Part shown: piece by piece, positions 3,062 through 51,195 of the stretch
How positions within the stretch are numbered: position 1 is the stretch's first letter
Layout of the letters: each line of letters opens with the position of its first letter
Assembly: GCA_027064005.1 (NCBI GenBank)
Contig: JAMOQM010000052.1
Location: forward strand, 1-51,357
Source of the DNA: Candidatus Cloacimonadota bacterium
Lineage (GTDB): Bacteria > Cloacimonadota > Cloacimonadia > Cloacimonadales > JAMOQM01
Length of the DNA: 51,357 nt
Reading direction: 5' to 3'
Position numbers and translations under genes: made by a program
The notes under the pieces: model-generated
The model's input: the letters and a program-made list of their open reading frames with translations, nothing else
Database searches by the model: none
Told to the model about the DNA's origin: nothing

Positions 3062-6000
3062 ATGAAAAGGATTTTATCGCTACTTTTATTTTGCCTAATT
3101 TATTTTAATTTGTCGGCAGAAGTCAAAATTGAAAAGATGACGGCTAATGAAATTATCCTAAATTATAGTTTATCGGACTCGGAATATGAAATCAAAACAA
3201 TCAATAATTCCGGTCAAAAATTTTCTTTAATTGAAGGGAAATTTGACGGGGCAACATCAAAAGAAGGCTTCCCAAAAATTCCTTATATTTCCGAATTAAT
3301 TGGAATTCCGGTAAATGGCTCTTTGTCGTATTCAGTATTATCAAAAGAAAATGAGATTAAAAAATTAAAATATGAACCGATGCCAATCTCGACAATGTCG
3401 TTTAGGAATAACAAACAATCTTATAAAGTGATAAAAAATTTAAAAGCTTACAACCAAATAATTTACCCTTCTAAAAATGTCCGAATCGGGAATTCAGCTT
3501 TTATGGGATTGAGCCATTACTCTTCAATCAACATTTATCCTTTTCAATATAATCCTCAAAAGAAAGAACTTATCTTAACCAAAAATATTAGAATTAAAAT
3601 AACAATTAATGGCGATAAAACTCCTTCTAAAAATTGGCAAGAAGAGAATTCCAGAAATTATGATTATGCAGGGAATATTTTTATTAATGAAAAATATTCG
3701 CGAAAATGGATGAAAGAACGAGTTAAAGCTTCTCAAACAAATAATGACAGATATGTTGCAAATTACGTAAATACAATCCAATTCTTGGTTGGAAAAGAAG
3801 GTATTTATAAAATTGATTATGACTATTTGATCGATTCTTTAAACGTTCTCCAAGATTCTTTGCAATTCAACTGGGCTTTCGATTGGAATACGGTTAATCC
3901 TAAATATTTTGAATTAAGCGATAAAAATGGTCCGGTTCCAATTCATTTCCACGGGGAAGAAGACGGCTCTTTTGATCCGGGAGATTACTTTGAATTTTAC
4001 GGCGATATTAATCATGGCGAAACTTCCTATTATAATGAATATACTTCTGAAAACATCTACTCCTTAAAATTAGTTGATCACATCGGAAGCCGAATGGCTA
4101 TTGAAAATGGCGGTTTGACAGTTTTTGACCCTTCAAAATATTATATCCCGACAGCTTTTCAGCAAAAAGTTCATTTTGAGCAACAAAATAATATGGAAAG
4201 ATTGGGGCATAGCTCCGATACACCGCGAGAAGATATTTGGTTTTGGAAAGACGTTTTAGCTCCAAGTATGATTTCTATTCCTTTTCAATTGGAATATCCT
4301 AAAGATTCCGGTATTGATACTTTTGATGCCGATGTTTGCCTTTTCGGAATTACCTATCCTGAAGACTATATTCCTGAATATGATCACCACGCAATTATTA
4401 GAATGAATTCAAGCTTGATTGACGAAAAAACTTGGTTTAGACAAAATCAACAGATGTTTTCCACGAGCAACGAACTTCCTAACAGTTTTTTGCATAATGG
4501 ACAAAATGACTTATATATCAGTTTACCGGGTGATACTCCAATGGAAAATGAAAAAGTTGCTTTGGATTATTTTGACGTAAATTATTGGCGAGAATATAAA
4601 ACGGATCAAGATTATTTGAAATTTACTAAACCAAAAGACAGACCTTTCGGACTTTATCAATTTCAATTGTACAATTTTTCCAGCGATGACGTAACTGTTT
4701 ATAAACTTGGATCATCCATCATGGAAAATTTACAAATAACTTCTTTTTCATCAAACGGAGCTCCGTATTCAGTTACTTTTCAAGATAGTGTGGTTTCCGA
4801 TAATATCCAATATTATGCGGTAACTGAAGCAAATAAAAAGAAACCGCTGGAAATTAAAGTTGATATTCCTTCTGACTTGAAATCACAAAATAACGCTGCC
4901 GATTATGTCATTATTACGATTCCTGATTTTGTTAATGATGAAGGAACGCAAATGTTAAAACAAACTTGGGAAGATCAAGGACATTCGGTGCAAATAGTTT
5001 CCACTCAAGATATTTATGATGAATTTAATCACGGTTTGAGATCTGCTCAAGCAATAAAAGATTTTATAGATTATGCTTATAACAATTGGTCTTTCCCGCA
5101 TTTGAATTATGTAGAATTACTTGGGGACGGATTGTCGGACGAAAGGGATAACAGTGTCTATCGGAAAATGAATTTAATCCCTTTTAAAAATATTTGGACG
5201 TGGAAATACGGTGCAACTCCGAGTGATAATTGGTATGCTTGTTTGGTTGGAGAAGATACGGTTCCGGATGTTTGTATCGGTAGAATAAATGTTTGGGAAA
5301 AAGAACAAATTATGCCCGTAGTTGAGAAAATAGAACACAATCTTAACTCACCGAATTACAACGATATGTGGCATTCTCACGTAACTTTGGCTGCCGGCGG
5401 AAAATCTGATGACACTACAGATATTTTTGCCATTCAAAGCGAGCGAATCCGAAAATACTATATCCCGAAAGATTATGTGGTAAGTCGAGTTTATACTGCA
5501 ACTCAAACGGTTTCTCCTGAATATCATGGCGGAACTTTTACTTTGAAAGATAATATTAATGATGGAACCGTATTCCTGCAATTTATGGGTCACGGTGGTG
5601 GTCAAATTTGGGCTGATTATAATCTTTTTAACTATAATGATGTTGAGACTTTGACAAATTCAGATTATCCGATAGTTGCCAGTTTGGCATGTTATGCTTC
5701 GGCATTTAACACACCCGGTGGTGCTTGTATGGGGGAAGCTTTGGTTTTGACACCGGAAAAAGGTGCTGTTGCAACAATTGGTTTCACAGGTTTGGGATAT
5801 TTATATGATGATGAATATTTCGGGCAATCTTTATCAGACGGTATTTTTACTAAACGATATGAAAATGTTGGAGAAGCTTTGCGATATACTTTAGGGAAAT
5901 TTTATTCCGTAATATCTCCCGGAGCACCTTCGAGAACTGCGTTAACTCAAGGATGTGCATTAATTGGTGATCCTCTTTCTCCAATTCATCTTCCAAAAGT

Positions 6001-8017
6001 TGCTTTGCAGGTAAATCTTAATAAATACAATTTTGCAGAAGGTGATACGGTTCATATTTCAGCAAATTTAGATTCTTCGGTTCACGGTGTTAAGATTGTT
6101 ATTTCTGATGAATTGGAAATTACGCAAAATATTCCTTATGAAATTCCGGTTGTGAATGGTAATTTTGATTATAGTTATGTAATTCCTCATAATGAAGATC
6201 AAAGTATTTATACTAGATTTGTGAAAGTTTTGGCTTATTCCGATTCTAAAGAATATCTTGGAATTTCGAATTTCACTATTGGTAAATCGGCTTTTGTTGA
6301 TAATAAAATATATCCGGCAAATCCGGTAGAAACTGATAGTGTTCGAATTACTATTAAATGTTTTGATGAAGATGGCGTTCAAAATGTAGTTTGTAAAAGA
6401 TTTATCGGGAACGATACCTATGTAGATTATAATATGATCTGGAATGCCGACAGTCTTTATTATCAAACAATTAATTCCTTTCCCCCGATGAATACCGGAG
6501 CAAATGTGTATTACAAATTTGAATTGATTGATAATAATAATGAAGCTCATTTATCAGACAGATATAGTTATCAGGTAAATGGTCCGGAGTTGGATATTTC
6601 AGATATGTCGTTTGAATATTATAACAATTTGCCTGCAATAAAAGTTATGGTTCAAAATATCGGTAATTCCAGTTCAAAAGCTTGTGATATCAAATTATTC
6701 AAACAGGTTCCAGACACAAAAAATTTTGAAATTATTTATGACGGGATGATTGATATTTTACAACCTTTAGAAAGAAAATGGTGTTACTTGACGTTACCTG
6801 TTTCTCAAGGAAATTTCCAATTAAAAGCAGTTGTAAATCACGATAATTATTTTAACGAAAGTAATGTTTTAAACAATAGTATTCAGCACAATTTTACCTT
6901 TAATCAATATGATCTTGGAGTCCAATCTTCCGAAATGATTTCGGCTGATTCAAACCTTGTGGTAACAACTCCAAGCGGACTTTTATCCGAAAATGCTGTT
7001 TTTGAACTCAACACGGTAAATAATATTCAGGCGATAAATCAACCGGATGCTCATCCGATTCAATTAAAAAATGGTGAAAGCAATGCTTTTTATGAGATAA
7101 AAACAATTAGAACCGATTTACTGGCTGATTCATTAGGACATTTTCCGCAAGAGGGGAAAATTACTTTGACTTATTTTTACGATCAAACTGACAGTTTAAC
7201 AAATTATCTTGCTGCGAACGGTGATTTTGCCGTTTATAGATGGCAACCGGGATTTTCTAAATGGATTAGAAAAGGTGGAAATATTTCTCTTGAAAATAAT
7301 AAATTTGTGGCTGAGGTAAATCAAACCGGTATTTACGGTCTCTTTAATAATACGGACAAAATTAAACCTTCCATTGATGTAAATGTTCAAGACCAAGAAT
7401 TTACTTATGGAGGTTATGTTTCGAGCGACGGTGTTTTATCGTTTATTTTTTCCGATGCCAACGGTATTGATCTTTTCGACAACGATGTGAAAATTTATAT
7501 CAATGGTGATGAGGTAGATAAATCAAAGTATTCCACTGTTTCGATTCCGGGACATCTCACAAATATTCCGGTGAAATTTCAATTGGATTTAGCTCCGGGA
7601 ACTTATACTTTGATGAGTTCTTGCGTTGATGTCGATGGGAATTATAATTCAACTGAAATCAATTTTGAAGTAAATAGCAAATTTGAAATGAAAAACGTAG
7701 CAAATTATCCAAATCCTGTTGTTTATAAAACAATTGATAGCATTAATCGGGGGAGAACACGTTTCACTTATGTTTTAACTGATGATGCTGATCGAGTTTA
7801 TATGAAAATATATACTGTCAGTGGAAGATTAATTAAGACTTTTGAAAACTTACCGAGCTCGGTTGGATATCACGAATTTCCGCGAACTGTTTTAGGATGG
7901 GATTGTCGGGATGATGGAGGATTTTATTTGGCCAATGGAGTTTATTTCTATAAAATTATTGCAATTAAAAACAATAAATCTTACGAAAAAATAAATAAAA
8001 TGGCAATACTAAAGTAA
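3062..8017 (+). CDS. Gingipain-like C25 protease, PorU-like type IX sortase
   Basis: 1651 aa exported protein with a signal peptide (about 1-19). The centre holds a peptidase C25 caspase-like domain: catalytic His844 in GHGGG and Cys877 in ASLACYAS. They are 33 residues apart, the same spacing I recall for gingipain RgpB. Beta-rich domains follow, including a CARDB-like stretch (about 1180-1290). The last ~90 residues (from NYPNPV to INKMAILK) resemble FlgD-like type IX C-terminal sorting domains. PorU, the surface sortase that cleaves such domains and attaches cargo to LPS, has this architecture and needs PorV. The PorV-like gene starts 9 bases downstream, favouring PorU over an ordinary secreted protease. 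At 1651 aa it is longer than the ~1100-1300 aa PorU proteins I know. GGATG precedes the ATG. Confidence 0.8.
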   Translation: MKRILSLLLFCLIYFNLSAEVKIEKMTANEIILNYSLSDSEYEIKTINNSGQKFSLIEGKFDGATSKEGFPKIPYISELIGIPVNGSLSYSVLSKENEIKKLKYEPMPISTMSFRNNKQSYKVIKNLKAYNQIIYPSKNVRIGNSAFMGLSHYSSINIYPFQYNPQKKELILTKNIRIKITINGDKTPSKNWQEENSRNYDYAGNIFINEKYSRKWMKERVKASQTNNDRYVANYVNTIQFLVGKEGIYKIDYDYLIDSLNVLQDSLQFNWAFDWNTVNPKYFELSDKNGPVPIHFHGEEDGSFDPGDYFEFYGDINHGETSYYNEYTSENIYSLKLVDHIGSRMAIENGGLTVFDPSKYYIPTAFQQKVHFEQQNNMERLGHSSDTPREDIWFWKDVLAPSMISIPFQLEYPKDSGIDTFDADVCLFGITYPEDYIPEYDHHAIIRMNSSLIDEKTWFRQNQQMFSTSNELPNSFLHNGQNDLYISLPGDTPMENEKVALDYFDVNYWREYKTDQDYLKFTKPKDRPFGLYQFQLYNFSSDDVTVYKLGSSIMENLQITSFSSNGAPYSVTFQDSVVSDNIQYYAVTEANKKKPLEIKVDIPSDLKSQNNAADYVIITIPDFVNDEGTQMLKQTWEDQGHSVQIVSTQDIYDEFNHGLRSAQAIKDFIDYAYNNWSFPHLNYVELLGDGLSDERDNSVYRKMNLIPFKNIWTWKYGATPSDNWYACLVGEDTVPDVCIGRINVWEKEQIMPVVEKIEHNLNSPNYNDMWHSHVTLAAGGKSDDTTDIFAIQSERIRKYYIPKDYVVSRVYTATQTVSPEYHGGTFTLKDNINDGTVFLQFMGHGGGQIWADYNLFNYNDVETLTNSDYPIVASLACYASAFNTPGGACMGEALVLTPEKGAVATIGFTGLGYLYDDEYFGQSLSDGIFTKRYENVGEALRYTLGKFYSVISPGAPSRTALTQGCALIGDPLSPIHLPKVALQVNLNKYNFAEGDTVHISANLDSSVHGVKIVISDELEITQNIPYEIPVVNGNFDYSYVIPHNEDQSIYTRFVKVLAYSDSKEYLGISNFTIGKSAFVDNKIYPANPVETDSVRITIKCFDEDGVQNVVCKRFIGNDTYVDYNMIWNADSLYYQTINSFPPMNTGANVYYKFELIDNNNEAHLSDRYSYQVNGPELDISDMSFEYYNNLPAIKVMVQNIGNSSSKACDIKLFKQVPDTKNFEIIYDGMIDILQPLERKWCYLTLPVSQGNFQLKAVVNHDNYFNESNVLNNSIQHNFTFNQYDLGVQSSEMISADSNLVVTTPSGLLSENAVFELNTVNNIQAINQPDAHPIQLKNGESNAFYEIKTIRTDLLADSLGHFPQEGKITLTYFYDQTDSLTNYLAANGDFAVYRWQPGFSKWIRKGGNISLENNKFVAEVNQTGIYGLFNNTDKIKPSIDVNVQDQEFTYGGYVSSDGVLSFIFSDANGIDLFDNDVKIYINGDEVDKSKYSTVSIPGHLTNIPVKFQLDLAPGTYTLMSSCVDVDGNYNSTEINFEVNSKFEMKNVANYPNPVVYKTIDSINRGRTRFTYVLTDDADRVYMKIYTVSGRLIKTFENLPSSVGYHEFPRTVLGWDCRDDGGFYLANGVYFYKIIAIKNNKSYEKINKMAILK

Positions 8018-30485: not shown

Positions 30486-31508
30486 ATGGAAATCATTGAA
30501 AGCGTTAATATTGAAAATTTAATTGATGAAATACAGCATTTAGTTTATTCTTCTCGAAGGAGAGTTATAGCCAATGTAAATAAGGAGCATCTTTTAACTT
30601 ATTGGAATATCGGAAAAATAATTATAGAGAAAGAGACAAAATCTCATATTAATAATCAAACAAGCCGGAAAATAATTCTACATATTTCAAAGATACTTAC
30701 TAAAAAACTTGGCAGGGGTTTTTCTCGTTCTAACTTATTTAATATGAGGAAGTTCTATTTGTCATACCCAAATGTCCAGACGCTGTCTGGACAACTTACA
30801 TGGTCAATTTATTGTGAGTTATTAGCTATTTCAGATTTAAATAAGCGTGCTTTTTATGAAAAAGAAAGCCAAAATGCAAATTGGACAGTTCGAGAGTTGA
30901 AAAGACAAATAAATAGTTCCTTATTTGAAAGATTGCTACTTTCAAAAGGGAAAAATAATAAAAAAACTATTCTAAAATTAGCAAAAGAAGGGCAAATTAT
31001 TAGCAACCCTGACGATCTAATAAAAGATCCTTATGTTTTTGAATTTTTAGGAATTCAGGGAAATAAACCTATTTTAGAAAAGGATTTAGAAAAACGACTG
31101 ATTAAGCATATTGAAGATTTTCTTCTTGAACTCGGTAAAGGATTTATGTATATCGGTTCACAACAAAGAGTTACTATTAATAATACTCACTATTATGTTG
31201 ATATGGTTTTCTATAATAAAATTTTAAAATCATACGTTCTAATTGAATTAAAAACAAAAAAGCTTCAAATATCTGATGGTGGTCAAATGAATACATATTT
31301 AAATTATTACAAAACGGAAATAAATGATGATAATGATAATCCACCTATTGGAATCATTATTTGTGCAGAAAAAGATGAAATTGCCGCTGAATATATTCTT
31401 GGCGGTTTAACAAATAGTATTTTTGCATCACAATATACTTATGTGCTTCCAAATGAAGAACAACTTATTCACCAAATAGAAGAAATTATTATAGATAATA
31501 AGGAATAA
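30486..31508 (+). CDS. YhcG-type DUF1016 PD-(D/E)XK nuclease
   Basis: 340 aa. The DUF1016 N-domain (about 10-150: YSSRRRVIANVNKEHLLTYW, NIGKIII, GFSRSNLFNMRKFYLSYP, QLTWSIYCELLAISD) and the C-terminal nuclease domain (about 175-330) are complete. The nuclease core shows Asp239 in VDMVFYN and Glu254-x-Lys256 in LIELK, with GGQMNTYLNYY next. YhcG proteins occur beside type I restriction systems and in mobile islands. The biochemical role is not well defined, though the fold predicts DNA cleavage. No restriction, antitoxin or methyltransferase partner is present here. The ribosome site is poor. Confidence 0.88.
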   Translation: MEIIESVNIENLIDEIQHLVYSSRRRVIANVNKEHLLTYWNIGKIIIEKETKSHINNQTSRKIILHISKILTKKLGRGFSRSNLFNMRKFYLSYPNVQTLSGQLTWSIYCELLAISDLNKRAFYEKESQNANWTVRELKRQINSSLFERLLLSKGKNNKKTILKLAKEGQIISNPDDLIKDPYVFEFLGIQGNKPILEKDLEKRLIKHIEDFLLELGKGFMYIGSQQRVTINNTHYYVDMVFYNKILKSYVLIELKTKKLQISDGGQMNTYLNYYKTEINDDNDNPPIGIIICAEKDEIAAEYILGGLTNSIFASQYTYVLPNEEQLIHQIEEIIIDNKE

Positions 31509-43556: not shown

Positions 43557-44600
43557 TTAATTTTTCATTTCAATAGTATTACTAATTATTTGAAGTTGGA
43601 TTAAACCGGTCAATTTATATCCGGCAGGGAAATAAATTGAATTATCAACGATAACGGCAGTTTGTGATTTTTCATCGTAAAAGGCAAAAGCTTGGAAAGC
43701 TCCACCGATATAATATTTTTTATTTTGCCAACGTCCAATAATTTTCCATCCATCTCTCTGATTGATTTTAGATTTTTGAATACGAATATCGTCTTTAGAA
43801 AATTCATCTTGATCATAAACTTTCCAAGCGAGTTTTTTTCTGGTTTTTATCAGCCAATCAGCGTTGACACTATCTTTAGCCATTTTTTCATAATAAACGG
43901 TTATGTAACGATCATAGCCATCTTTAACAATTCTTTTAATAAATGAAATATAATGCTCTTCAGGTTTATTTTTATAAATAAAAAATATCTTTGGAATTTT
44001 AAGTTTGAAGGGGAATTTGGCGAAAGTTGAGTCAGGGAGAGTTTTAATCCCCAAAATATTTGTAGCTTCTCGATCAATTAATTTCTTTTTAAAAACATTA
44101 AAGATTTTCTCAGATTGGAGAATATTTAGTTTGAGAAGATTTCGCTCATTATTTCCCATCAAAATGACAACTTGTTGATCTCTAGCCCATAAATCATTTT
44201 TGGCAAAAAGTCCCACCGATTTCTTTTTCACGTCTTCGATAATTGCAGGATTTAATCTTGATTTGATATAATTTGAAACACTGTCTTGAGCTGCAACGTT
44301 AACCAAAAAAATCAGATTCTTATATTTATAAAATTGACTGATATCGCTAATATCGGCTCTTTTCACATCAAAGTAATTTTCATTTTGAGATGTAAAAACA
44401 TTTCTTGCCAAAGATTTTTTTAAAGGTGTTTGAGCATATTTCCAAATGTGATTGCTGGCAAAGACATAAATAGTTTGTTTTTGCCCCCACGATAATGGTT
44501 TTGAATAATCAATTTTATTTCTGTTAGAATTGTTTGAGGAAGTTTTTCCGCATCCGAAAATAGTTAGAAATATGATGAATAATAAAGCGCTTTTTTTCAT
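43557..44600 (-). CDS. DUF4837 family lipoprotein
   Basis: 347 aa from the ATG at 44600, which begins a lipoprotein signal ending IFGCG (lipid Cys at 17); an upstream in-frame start would lie in pgsA. LSWGQKQTIYVFASNHIWKY in the N-half and GWKIIGRWQNKKYYIGGAFQ and IYFPAGYKLTGLIQLQ at the C-end match DUF4837, a family seen in Bacteroidetes-like genomes. Function unknown. It overlaps the end of pgsA by 4 bases. Confidence 0.8.
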   Translation of the reverse strand: MKKSALLFIIFLTIFGCGKTSSNNSNRNKIDYSKPLSWGQKQTIYVFASNHIWKYAQTPLKKSLARNVFTSQNENYFDVKRADISDISQFYKYKNLIFLVNVAAQDSVSNYIKSRLNPAIIEDVKKKSVGLFAKNDLWARDQQVVILMGNNERNLLKLNILQSEKIFNVFKKKLIDREATNILGIKTLPDSTFAKFPFKLKIPKIFFIYKNKPEEHYISFIKRIVKDGYDRYITVYYEKMAKDSVNADWLIKTRKKLAWKVYDQDEFSKDDIRIQKSKINQRDGWKIIGRWQNKKYYIGGAFQAFAFYDEKSQTAVIVDNSIYFPAGYKLTGLIQLQIISNTIEMKN

Positions 44601-45169
44601 TTTTTGGCTCCAAGTTGAGTAAAATAATTTGCCCCGGAAAGAACTGTAACTAAGGCAACAATCCAAAAATAATATCTAAAAATTTTAAAAACCACTAAAT
44701 TGTAATTTACTAATTCTTTGAAAATAAAAGTTAAAGAAATATAAACCAAGGCGGCAATAATCCCTGTCAATTGCAAAACTGTTTTAAGTTTTCCCCATTT
44801 ATTTGCAGCGATAAAAATTTTTTTCTTCATATAATAATTTCTCAAAATAGTAACAGCTACTTCTCTGATAATAATGATAATTATTACAGCCATTGGAATG
44901 AAATAATATGTTTTAGTTGAAAGGGCGAAAAGAGCCGAAATCACTAAAAATTTGTCAGCTAAAGGATCCATAATTTTACCAAAATTGGAAATGATTTTAT
45001 ATTTTCTCGCTAGCATACCGTCAAAATAATCTGTAATACTGGCAGTAACAAACACAAAAAGACTGGCGAATGCTGCAATTGATTTTGGTTCAAAATAGAA
45101 CATAAAATAAATGAATACAGGTACCAGTGCAATCCTGAATAGCGTTAAAATATTAGGTATATTTTTCAT
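44597..45169 (-). CDS. pgsA: CDP-diacylglycerol-glycerol-3-phosphate 3-phosphatidyltransferase
   Basis: 190 aa. The CDP-alcohol phosphatidyltransferase signature D-x2-DG-x2-AR-x8-G-x3-D-x3-D is complete, running from DYFDGMLARK to GKIMDPLAD. Four or five membrane helices. It makes phosphatidylglycerophosphate. AGAGGA precedes the ATG. The start abuts the stop of the FtsX-like gene. Confidence 0.94.
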   Translation of the reverse strand: MKNIPNILTLFRIALVPVFIYFMFYFEPKSIAAFASLFVFVTASITDYFDGMLARKYKIISNFGKIMDPLADKFLVISALFALSTKTYYFIPMAVIIIIIIREVAVTILRNYYMKKKIFIAANKWGKLKTVLQLTGIIAALVYISLTFIFKELVNYNLVVFKIFRYYFWIVALVTVLSGANYFTQLGAKK

Positions 45170-45933
45170 TAATTTCCTCTTCTTATATTTTTTAAATAAA
45201 CTAATAATCCCGGGAAAAACAACATTCCAATTTGACTTGGAACATTGAATTTACTAATTTGAAGATGATAAATTTTGGCAATATAATTTTCCATAATTAT
45301 GCTAATAATTGAAGCGACAAAAATCAGAGAGACGTTTTGGAAAATAAACTTAGTTGAACGTGTCTTTTTTTGTCCGCCGGTTGAATAAAAAATGTCCCAA
45401 AATTTATCTTCATTTTTTTCTAAAAGATTTTGAATTGTAAAGATAATCAGAATTCCCAAAAGCCATTCTGAAATCCAAACAATTGGTTTAAATTTATTTA
45501 TTTTTTCAATTTTAAATAATGATTTTTTAACCATATCCGGATGAAATATTTTTTGAGATTTTGATGTTGCAAGTATTTTATTTAATTTCAAAAATTTTGA
45601 ATTGTTTAGATTCTTCGGAGAAATTTTAACAGTCATAATATTTGGATAATTAGTTTCATCGATAAGATTAGAATATTTTTTTAGGCCATATTCTTTTATC
45701 AACATTGGAATTAAATCAGTTTTTTTTTGAATAATTATTTTGAAAGACGTTAGAGAATCTAACCTTGTTTTTAAAGATTCAAGACTTTTTAATGATTTAT
45801 CCGCAATGATAATCTTTTCAGACTTTATTTTATTCTCATTTATTTTTTGAATAAAATCAAGATTTGCATTTATCAAATCAAACGTAAAAATCAATGAGAT
45901 AAAGATGCTGAAGAGGATAAGATTTTTTTTCAT
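45169..45933 (-). CDS. ftsX: FtsX-like membrane protein
   Basis: 254 aa with FtsX topology: helix 1 (5-23), an extracytoplasmic domain (about 25-150) and three C-terminal helices (about 152-170, 195-215, 230-248). The loop contains DLIPMLIKEYGLKKYSNLI and YPNIMTVKISPKNLN, which parallel the PLP-x-S-hydrophobic region of FtsX ectodomains. The gene overlaps an FtsE-like ATPase gene by ATGA, the classical ftsEX order. FtsEX transmits a signal to periplasmic cell-wall hydrolase activators; an M23 protein is encoded about 4 kb upstream. Sequence is divergent, so the call rests on topology and context. Confidence 0.68.
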   Translation of the reverse strand: MKKNLILFSIFISLIFTFDLINANLDFIQKINENKIKSEKIIIADKSLKSLESLKTRLDSLTSFKIIIQKKTDLIPMLIKEYGLKKYSNLIDETNYPNIMTVKISPKNLNNSKFLKLNKILATSKSQKIFHPDMVKKSLFKIEKINKFKPIVWISEWLLGILIIFTIQNLLEKNEDKFWDIFYSTGGQKKTRSTKFIFQNVSLIFVASIISIIMENYIAKIYHLQISKFNVPSQIGMLFFPGLLVYLKNIRRGN

Positions 45934-46526
45934 TTTACCAGAAATCCATTTGAGATTTTATATGTTTTAGGAATTCGATCAATTTTGTTTTTGGCAGTAA
46001 AAATAAAACTTGTTCCGCTTTTGAGAGAATTTTCGATTAAAGAAATTACTTTGATAAATTTAATTTCGTCAAACATCAAGTCAAAATCATCAATGATAAT
46101 TAAATGTGGTTTTCTCGAAACGGCACGGATAATCTCGATTATTTTTTTATCAGAAAACGACATATTTTTGGGGTATAAATTATCAATATCTTCAAAATTA
46201 AAAATCTTAACCGAATCAAAAATTTTGCTTTTCAGGTTCTCACTTTTTCTTTTAAAGGGAATCAGAATATTTTTTAAAACACTAATTTCATCGATAAGAT
46301 TATCATTTATCCCGATTTTAATAATTATCGGTTTTTCTGTCAGAATTTCGAAACTATCTTCAAAACCATTTGGATGTGATAAAATAAAATCACAAAACAA
46401 ACTTTTCCCCGAATTGTTTCTCCCGACAATTTGAATAACTTCACTTTTTTCGAGAGTTAATTCTTTAATAGTTAAAAAATTTTCGCCAAAATAATTTCTA
46501 ATAGAACATTCTTTAAATTTTAGCAT
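45930..46526 (-). CDS. ftsE: Degenerate FtsE-like ABC ATPase
   Basis: 198 aa. Walker A is intact (GRNNSGKS, 35-42), so nucleotide binding is likely. Other motifs are lost: no Q-loop Gln in GINDNLIDEISVLKN, signature LSGGQ replaced by MSFSDKK (122-128), Walker B reads LIIIDDFD with Asp147 for the catalytic Glu, and the switch His is missing in SFIFTAKN (173-180). Length is a little under normal FtsE (about 220 aa). It overlaps the FtsX-like gene by 4 bases and the methyltransferase gene by 14. Function is probably structural or signalling without hydrolysis. Confidence 0.7.
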   Translation of the reverse strand: MLKFKECSIRNYFGENFLTIKELTLEKSEVIQIVGRNNSGKSLFCDFILSHPNGFEDSFEILTEKPIIIKIGINDNLIDEISVLKNILIPFKRKSENLKSKIFDSVKIFNFEDIDNLYPKNMSFSDKKIIEIIRAVSRKPHLIIIDDFDLMFDEIKFIKVISLIENSLKSGTSFIFTAKNKIDRIPKTYKISNGFLVK

Positions 46527-47145
46527 TTATAAATTCCGCGATAAAAAAGGATTTTTTAGTATTTTTAAGAATAGTTAAATTGAGTATTTTAAATTTATAG
46601 TACTGCATTTTTTCTTGAAATTCTTCCAGGCGAGATTTGGGATAAATTAAATAGCTTTTGCCATTTTCAGCTAATTTATTTTTCACCAAATTTAGCACAT
46701 CATCCATGTTACATAATATTTCATTTCGAGAAACAGCTCGTTCATAAATGGGGCTAATCCTTGTTTTCCCTAATTGGAAATAAGGTGGATTACCGATAAT
46801 CAAATCATAATTTTCATCAATAATATTTTGTGGATTTTTAATATCATCAACAAAGAAATTGATGTTTTGAGAAATTTCAACAGCATTTTTATTTGCCAAA
46901 TCAATCAGATTTTCCAGAATATCAAAAGCGGCGATTTCCCAATTTGATTTGTAATGAGAAAGCATTAAGGAAATTATACCGTTTCCCGTTCCTAATTCTA
47001 AAATTTTTTTGGGATCGTTCTTTTCATTATTAAGAATAGTTTGCACAAAATCTGACGTATCGGTTGTGATTGGTTGACCGTTGGAACTTTGATAAATTGT
47101 GCTTCCAAAAGGTAATAAAACCGGCGTTAAATCTTGTTTATTCAT
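46513..47145 (-). CDS. TrmN6-like adenine methyltransferase
   Basis: 210 aa from the ATG at 47145; a TTG at 47160 lies inside the nadA terminator hairpin. SAM site ILELGTGNGIISLMLS and catalytic NPPY in LIIGNPPYFQLGKTRISPIY mark it as a YfiC/TrmN6 relative that makes m6A37 in tRNA-Val. No good ribosome site is visible between the hairpin and the ATG. HemK-like relatives share NPPY, but lack the KTRISPIYERAVSRNE stretch. Confidence 0.85.
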   Translation of the reverse strand: MNKQDLTPVLLPFGSTIYQSSNGQPITTDTSDFVQTILNNEKNDPKKILELGTGNGIISLMLSHYKSNWEIAAFDILENLIDLANKNAVEISQNINFFVDDIKNPQNIIDENYDLIIGNPPYFQLGKTRISPIYERAVSRNEILCNMDDVLNLVKNKLAENGKSYLIYPKSRLEEFQEKMQYYKFKILNLTILKNTKKSFFIAEFINAKI

Positions 47146-47147
47146 AA

Positions 47148-47172
47148 GGAAAAAGCCCAAGAATCGGGCTAA
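47148..47172 (-). terminator. Terminator-like hairpin after nadA
   Basis: On the minus strand AGCCC (47170-47166), a 7-base loop, GGGCT (47158-47154), then TTTTCC. It lies between the nadA stop at 47176 and the methyltransferase ATG at 47145. A short stem, so it may attenuate more than stop. Confidence 0.65.
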
Positions 47173-50265: not shown

Positions 50266-51195
50266 TTATTTTCTAACTACAATATTATCATAAGATTTGT
50301 TTAAATAAGGTTTAGGATTTTTGATACGTCCATGTTTCCAAACTTCGTAATGAAGATGTGCTCCTGTGGATCTTCCTGTATTCCCCATAAATGCGATGAT
50401 TTGACCTCGTACAACATGATCGCCTTTTTGAACGATAATCTTATGTAAATGTGCGTATTTTGTTTTGTAGCTGAACTTATGCTTTAGAGTAACAAATTTT
50501 CCGAATAATTTTAGTCTTCCGGTTTCCGCAACAATTCCATCGGCAGTAGCATAAACGGGCGTACCAATTTTTGAGCCGATATCAACTCCATGATGGAAGG
50601 CACGTTTTTTGGTTACAGGATTTATACGCCATCCGTACCAAGAAGAAATTCTTCCAAATGCCGGGTAAATACACGGTGTCGCTCTCAAAAGTTCTGATTT
50701 CAAATTTAGGAAACTTAGTACTTTTTTGTGAGATTTTAAATCAAATTTAATTTTATTATCCAAGTGGTTAAGCTTTTGGGATAATTGCGTAAATTGAATA
50801 TTTAAAATCGGCGAAGTAAAAAGGGAATCAATAACCGGATAACCACCGGTTCCCATACTTCTTAAATCTTTTGGAATTTTTTTAAGATTTTCTTTAGATC
50901 TTATTTGATCTTCAAATTTATCTATGGCATCCATTTTTATCATTAATGAATCTAAATTATGATTTATTTTGCTTAATTGAGTTCTTAATTCCCTATTTTG
51001 ATTTTGTAAAATTGCCATTTTGTTTAAATCAACGCTTTTGTTTGAGATATAAAAAATCCCGAAAACAATTGAAAATACAAACAACGCAATGACGACTCCC
51101 AAAGAAATTAGAGTAATCTTTGAAATTGCAAAACTCATTGGTTCTGCAGAATCATTAGTAGAAAAATTTATATGTAACCTGTTACTTTTTGGCAT
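50266..51195 (-). CDS. Membrane-anchored M23 (LytM) endopeptidase
   Basis: 309 aa. A cytosolic start (1-20), one membrane helix (about 25-50), a coiled-coil stretch (about 58-105) and a C-terminal LytM domain (about 175-295). Zinc ligands are intact: His201 and Asp205 in HHGVDIG and His282 in HLHYE, with catalytic His249 in YAHLH. It should cleave peptidoglycan cross-links or, less likely, act as an activator. Architecture is like envelope hydrolases partnered with FtsEX, and an FtsEX-like pair is 4 kb downstream. AAGGA precedes the ATG. Confidence 0.92.
   Translation of the reverse strand: MPKSNRLHINFSTNDSAEPMSFAISKITLISLGVVIALFVFSIVFGIFYISNKSVDLNKMAILQNQNRELRTQLSKINHNLDSLMIKMDAIDKFEDQIRSKENLKKIPKDLRSMGTGGYPVIDSLFTSPILNIQFTQLSQKLNHLDNKIKFDLKSHKKVLSFLNLKSELLRATPCIYPAFGRISSWYGWRINPVTKKRAFHHGVDIGSKIGTPVYATADGIVAETGRLKLFGKFVTLKHKFSYKTKYAHLHKIIVQKGDHVVRGQIIAFMGNTGRSTGAHLHYEVWKHGRIKNPKPYLNKSYDNIVVRK

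Follow-up and report, generated by a model that had tools for sequence, protein, structure and literature searches.

An FtsE-like subunit without catalytic motifs stands beside FtsX in Cloacimonadota and is absent from several of its lineages

The stretch of DNA analysed here (the window, 51,357 nucleotides) comes from a 2.4-Mb draft genome of Cloacimonadota, in which it forms contig C52, and on its reverse strand it carries a gene for a degenerate ABC nucleotide-binding subunit followed by a gene for FtsX (Table 1), both frames being open and overlapping by 4 bases. The order methyltransferase, ATPase (where present), FtsX, pgsA-like gene and DUF4837 gene recurred with few exceptions in the loci read, and the relatives carrying this locus belonged by name almost entirely to Candidatus Cloacimonadota. 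In three loci of family f10 (L055, L056 and L059, from genomes G009, G021 and G044) the trmN-like methyltransferase was also gone, so that nadA abuts ftsX. One metagenome-assembled genome (MAG) titled Armatimonadetes (L181, JABMPU010000005.1) is probably misnamed, since its pseudo-FtsE/FtsX locus (the name is explained below) is typical of Cloacimonadota, whilst a match from 'Spirochaetales' (L208) proved to be an unrelated 497-aa ABC ATPase and was set aside as no orthologue. The DUF4837 lipoprotein-like protein keeps its place beside pgsA and FtsX across the loci of Cloacimonadota that were read, and may be connected with the envelope. Elsewhere in the window lie a 1651-aa protein that joins a gingipain-type Peptidase_C25 domain and its propeptide to a FlgD-like Ig domain at the C-terminus (3062-8017, + strand), recalling secreted proteins whose C-terminal region serves for sorting, a DUF1016/YhcG PDDEXK nuclease (30486-31508, + strand) and a membrane-anchored coiled-coil M23 endopeptidase resembling MepM/ShyA (50266-51195, - strand).

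Table 1. Genes and sequence features of the pseudo-FtsE/FtsX locus, in window positions
Feature	Position	Strand	Basis
trmN-like methyltransferase, conserved upstream neighbour	46513..47160	-	profiles, relatives' loci
pseudo-FtsE, degenerate ABC nucleotide-binding subunit, 198 aa	45930..46526	-	ORF, profiles, model
Walker A GRNNSGKS, aa 35-42, kept, second Gly lost	46401..46424	-	alignment
Q-loop region, aa 68-78, no Gln	46293..46325	-	alignment
Signature region MSFSD, aa 122-126, replacing LSGGQ	46149..46163	-	alignment
Walker B and D-loop, aa 141-153; Asp147 for catalytic Glu; D-loop FD kept	46068..46106	-	alignment
Switch region, aa 172-179; His to Ala, then conserved Lys	45990..46013	-	alignment
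FtsX, 254 aa, 4 membrane segments and one large extracellular domain	45169..45933	-	ORF, model
FtsX extracellular domain, about aa 38-131	45541..45822	-	model secondary structure; orthologue PF18075 matches
FtsX cytoplasmic coupling segment TM2-TM3, aa 168-188, with FYSTGG	45370..45432	-	alignment to P. aeruginosa FtsX
pgsA-like CDP-alcohol phosphatidyltransferase, conserved downstream neighbour	44597..45169	-	profiles, relatives' loci
DUF4837 lipoprotein-like protein, conserved downstream neighbour	43557..44666	-	profiles, relatives' loci

Taken alone, the window FtsX matched only PF02687 (0.0089, below the cut-off). Among its orthologues, TIGR00439 (FtsX_Gneg) was matched by 20 of 59 (best 5.5e-9) and PF18075 (FtsX_ECD) by 15 of 59, above the cut-off in genome G002; across 40 genomes PF18075 found two proteins, both of them the FtsX of this locus. 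A profile of the family compared with the PDB gave significant matches to FtsX chains only (1.4e-8 and 1.5e-5), and the AlphaFold model (pLDDT 87) placed FtsX of Pseudomonas aeruginosa at the top in Foldseek (8i6o_A, 1.2e-6; also 8ymc_C and 8i6s_C), an FtsEX complex being among the top matches. Judged by these profile and fold matches, the protein is a true member of the FtsX family. The model begins with a long N-terminal helix, which is followed by an alpha/beta ectodomain (~95 residues) and three further long helices, and thus predicts the topology that the preliminary description had read from the sequence: TM1 and TM2 are separated by a single large extracellular domain, and the transmembrane segments number four.

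The adjacent ATPase matched ABC_tran (5.4e-9), and its best NCBIfam family was FtsE, yet with 38 bits against a cut-off of 264.85 (TIGR02673). The same family matched all 43 ATPases of the locus far below its cut-off (~69 bits at best among the matches listed) and was usually, not always, the best one. In Foldseek, the ATPase model (pLDDT 93) found FtsE of Escherichia coli first (8hd0_A, 2e-14), then pneumococcal FtsE (9e-14), and the gene adjoined ftsX wherever it was found. The pair was thus rightly described as FtsEX in its make-up, with FtsE rather than a different ABC family giving both the best family match and the closest fold. That the two genes instead form another type VII ABC pair (LolD/MacB/YtrEF-like) would fit the low FtsE scores and the members scoring equally with other ABC families, such as CcmA for L080; against the FtsX_ECD and FtsX_Gneg matches of the orthologues, the restriction of PF18075 and of significant PDB profile matches to FtsX, and the top-ranking FtsE and FtsX folds, it is scarcely credible. 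The ATPase stands in the place of FtsE and has its fold, and it fails the catalytic definition of FtsE in all 43 cases; for this reason we call it pseudo-FtsE.

The window ATPase carries Ile at the position of the Q-loop Gln (13 residues before a conserved Asn), has IIIDD as its Walker B motif and reads FTAK, without His, at the switch. Among 43 distinct orthologues from the same locus, the Q-loop Gln, LSGG, the catalytic Glu and the switch His were each found in none, so that the losses first noticed in this one protein hold for the whole family. These losses are not an artefact of alignment, because six FtsE-like ABC ATPases aligned alongside (MacB, LolD and MlaF, from the window genome and a relative) keep GxSGxGKS, FQ, LSGG, DEP and TH, and the recurrence of the losses in all 43 sequences compared places them beyond chance. 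The Walker A motif, described at first as kept, is indeed present, yet it is atypical, having lost the second P-loop Gly in 41 of 43 orthologues and exchanged Lys41 for Arg in ten, a change carried by genus g28. Other positions are strikingly constant: Gly40, Lys/Arg41, Ser/Thr42 and Asp146, which are Mg/phosphate residues, were kept in 43 of 43, and Asn37, the D-loop Asp and Lys/Arg179 in 41 of 43 each. The pair Asp146-Asp147 (43/43) puts an invariant Asp at the position of the catalytic Glu, the second signature Gly is replaced by Ser125 throughout (43/43), and the first is mostly Phe, Tyr or Ser. No conservation was seen at the A-loop aromatic, whilst Ser125, Arg134, Pro140, Asp146 and Asp147 are invariant in the family.

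In an ABC dimer, the first signature Gly must accept the gamma-phosphate bound by the partner subunit. An ATP-sandwich dimer of pseudo-FtsE looks unlikely, because neither the A-loop aromatic nor the second P-loop Gly is kept, the Walker A Lys is Arg in ten orthologues and the first signature position is bulky; a homodimer would hold two dead sites. The constancy of the Mg/phosphate residues hints at residual binding of a ligand, which might be MgATP. The near-invariance of Ser125, Lys128, Asp147 and Lys179, all within motifs that line the normal ABC site, might be taken for a rewired site with new catalytic or ligand-binding function; we know of no chemistry that uses this set, its conservation could equally be structural, and we regard such a rewiring as highly improbable. 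The suggestion of the preliminary description, that this FtsEX signals by nucleotide binding alone, would have pseudo-FtsE bind ATP without hydrolysis, FtsX being moved either as the nucleotide binds and leaves or by the level of ATP in the cell. The residues Gly40, Lys/Arg41, Ser/Thr42, Asn37 and the Mg-binding Asp146 speak for it, as does E. coli, where the activating change is driven by the binding of ATP and reset by its hydrolysis (PMC12505981). However, a switch without hydrolysis would have no reset, an ATP sandwich should be blocked by Phe, Tyr or Ser at the first signature position, the A-loop and P-loop changes and the Arg in place of Lys41 in ten orthologues count against it, and several lineages dispense with the subunit altogether; the switch is therefore not favoured and seems unlikely to us.

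FtsX was present in 105 of 125 Cloacimonadota genomes. Three genomes of family f2 (G001, G011 and G018) had no FtsX match and did have an EnvC-like match; their FtsX is either lost or too divergent. The search for a second, canonical ftsE, proposed in the preliminary description, found none above the curated cut-off in the 125 genomes, against seven of 14 control genomes, the cut-off being strict enough that an eighth control scored strongly yet fell below it. Candidates were inspected one by one in G000, G009 (single-contig) and G022, where the best proved to be of MacB/LolD type beside large permeases, or of Mla type, and were rejected; the remaining genomes were judged by the cut-off alone. 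Two orphan ABC ATPases without an adjacent permease, Mla-like or unassigned, were seen at L117:1501-2214 and L151:1501-2217 (G000 and G009).

Pseudo-FtsE was itself missing at the locus in all 35 sampled genomes of family f10, in ten of 11 of family f13 (the judgeable ones) and in G022 (family f8), apparent absences at contig ends (L016/L113, L022 and L095) being left out. A family profile found no copy elsewhere in 13 locus-negative genomes, where scores reached at most 88 bits compared with 194-276 where the subunit is present, a gap that rules out relocation in these genomes. The absences correspond to three changes on a tree of neighbouring proteins, whose root is not fixed, so that the tree by itself does not separate gain from loss. 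Pairing of FtsE with FtsX is general in bacteria, and loss of the subunit is therefore the natural reading.

The cytoplasmic segment of FtsX between TM2 and TM3 is the predicted docking site of FtsE. This segment aligns with that of P. aeruginosa FtsX, which ends in VGG, and in the equivalent region of pneumococcal FtsX the contact with FtsE was shown by mutation (PMC7468199). In the 36 genomes taken as bearing pseudo-FtsE (two or three of them less surely so, lying at contig ends), the stretch after TM2 follows the consensus R..(F/Y)E.(K/R)...(F/Y)W.(I/V)(Y/F)..(S/A)GG, with the Trp in 33 of 36 and the two Gly in 35 and 33 of 36. Without the subunit, the motif is gone from FtsX in family f10, and family f13 retains a KW.LW stretch with loss of GG, a contrast that rests on two deep clades, and so on few independent events, the recent-loss genome G022 still having Trp and GG with its aromatic residue 178 changed to Lys. 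Conserved ectodomain positions persist in the FtsE-less group (Leu84 in 20 of 23, Pro97 in 19 of 23). Loss of GG together with retention of the ectodomain is what would be expected if pseudo-FtsE docks on FtsX and FtsX keeps its outer function alone.

Pseudo-FtsE is under purifying selection. In genus g28, its median dN/dS was 0.065 (NG86, 30 pairs, mean dS 1.14), below that of the neighbouring FtsX (0.129), methyltransferase (0.151) and PgsA (0.098), and this despite the Walker A Lys to Arg change in that genus; genus g23 was left aside, having only two ATPase pairs with unsaturated dS. These values, and frames that are intact across nine families, agree with the initial view of the overlapping genes as no pseudogene. 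Decay of a single copy among canonical relatives, the other outcome the preliminary description had allowed for, is ruled out by the same losses in all relatives (43/43). A related possibility is that pseudo-FtsE is a functionless vestige persisting by chance until deleted, as its repeated absence (two clades and G022) and its dispensability in present-day lineages might imply. Selection contradicts this, as do the intact frames, the five invariant residues and the co-conserved coupling segment of FtsX, and a vestigial subunit is in our estimation quite unlikely.

Candidates for the outward partners of FtsX could also be traced. In the window genome, an EnvC-like protein is encoded on contig C51 (14384-15466); it has a signal peptide, a coiled coil and a LytM domain, and its best NCBIfam families were DipM, EnvC and NlpD, all below their cut-offs. 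An EnvC-like match was present in 71 of 71 good genomes, some of these matches spanning the LytM domain only, and zinc ligands were lost in all 30 orthologues inspected; the LytM site of EnvC is itself degenerate (PMC11627006). Amidase_3 was found in 36 of 40 relatives scanned, and FtsX, the EnvC-like protein and the amidase are kept in lineages without pseudo-FtsE.

We consider it probable, from comparison of the sequences, that the FtsEX of Cloacimonadota is uncoupled from ATP hydrolysis and that pseudo-FtsE serves as a non-catalytic docking or scaffold subunit. In such an arrangement, pseudo-FtsE would dimerize under FtsX, docked on the coupling helix, and as a scaffold would place FtsX in the divisome and bias its conformation. 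The ectodomain of FtsX would hold the EnvC-like coiled-coil/LytM activator, which in turn would activate the amidase at the septum. In place of an ATP cycle, the assembly or mechanical state of the divisome would act as trigger, and the subunit could thus have been dropped once FtsX managed alone. Uncoupling must be weighed against the slow hydrolysis that Glu to Asp sites sustain in other ABC proteins (PMC7756269). Extended to the whole phylum, the proposal becomes one of amidase control by FtsX and EnvC without an ATPase, with pseudo-FtsE non-catalytic where present, FtsX alone where it is absent, and the signal coming from divisome assembly or mechanical tension; for this wider claim we judge the chances to be evenly balanced.

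The system resembles FtsEX-EnvC of E. coli, P. aeruginosa and Vibrio cholerae in the fold, ectodomain and coupling segment of FtsX, in the adjacent subunit with an FtsE fold, and in the presence within the genomes of an EnvC-like coiled coil with degenerate LytM and of an amidase. It differs in that the Cloacimonadota subunit keeps only partial Walker A and B motifs and the D-loop, and that some lineages do without it. For normal division, E. coli requires its FtsE both to bind and to hydrolyse ATP (PMC7343993, PMC12505981), whereas in one background the suppression of a separation defect depended on interaction with EnvC and not on hydrolysis of ATP (PMC7343993). Heterodimeric ABC exporters (ABCB2/B3 and TM287/288) likewise combine a Walker B Glu to Asp change and signature changes with a conserved, folded nucleotide-binding domain; there, however, as in known degenerate ABC sites generally, the altered site adjoins a canonical one, which in the exporters drives the cycle (PMC7756269), and no canonical partner was seen in Cloacimonadota. 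FtsX of Caulobacter crescentus apparently performs a function that viability requires and that is independent of FtsE, a precedent for an FtsX role without need of FtsE, although this species keeps FtsE for efficient constriction and separation (PMC5607218), whilst that of Cloacimonadota is degenerate or absent.

Our literature searches, with subscription papers mostly outside their reach, brought up neither a pseudo-ATPase FtsE nor a phylum that has FtsX and lacks canonical FtsE, and no paper that treats Cloacimonadota and FtsX jointly. FtsEX has been described as an ATP-powered mechanotransmitter, and the contribution of ATP hydrolysis is debated, whether to activation, to reset or mainly to septal synthesis. 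Cloacimonadota offer a natural experiment on this question, as FtsX is phylum-wide and its FtsE lacks catalytic motifs or, in several lineages, is missing. Ultimately, with matched natural variants in which pseudo-FtsE is present, absent or recently lost, these bacteria separate the need of FtsX for FtsE as a partner from its need for ATP.
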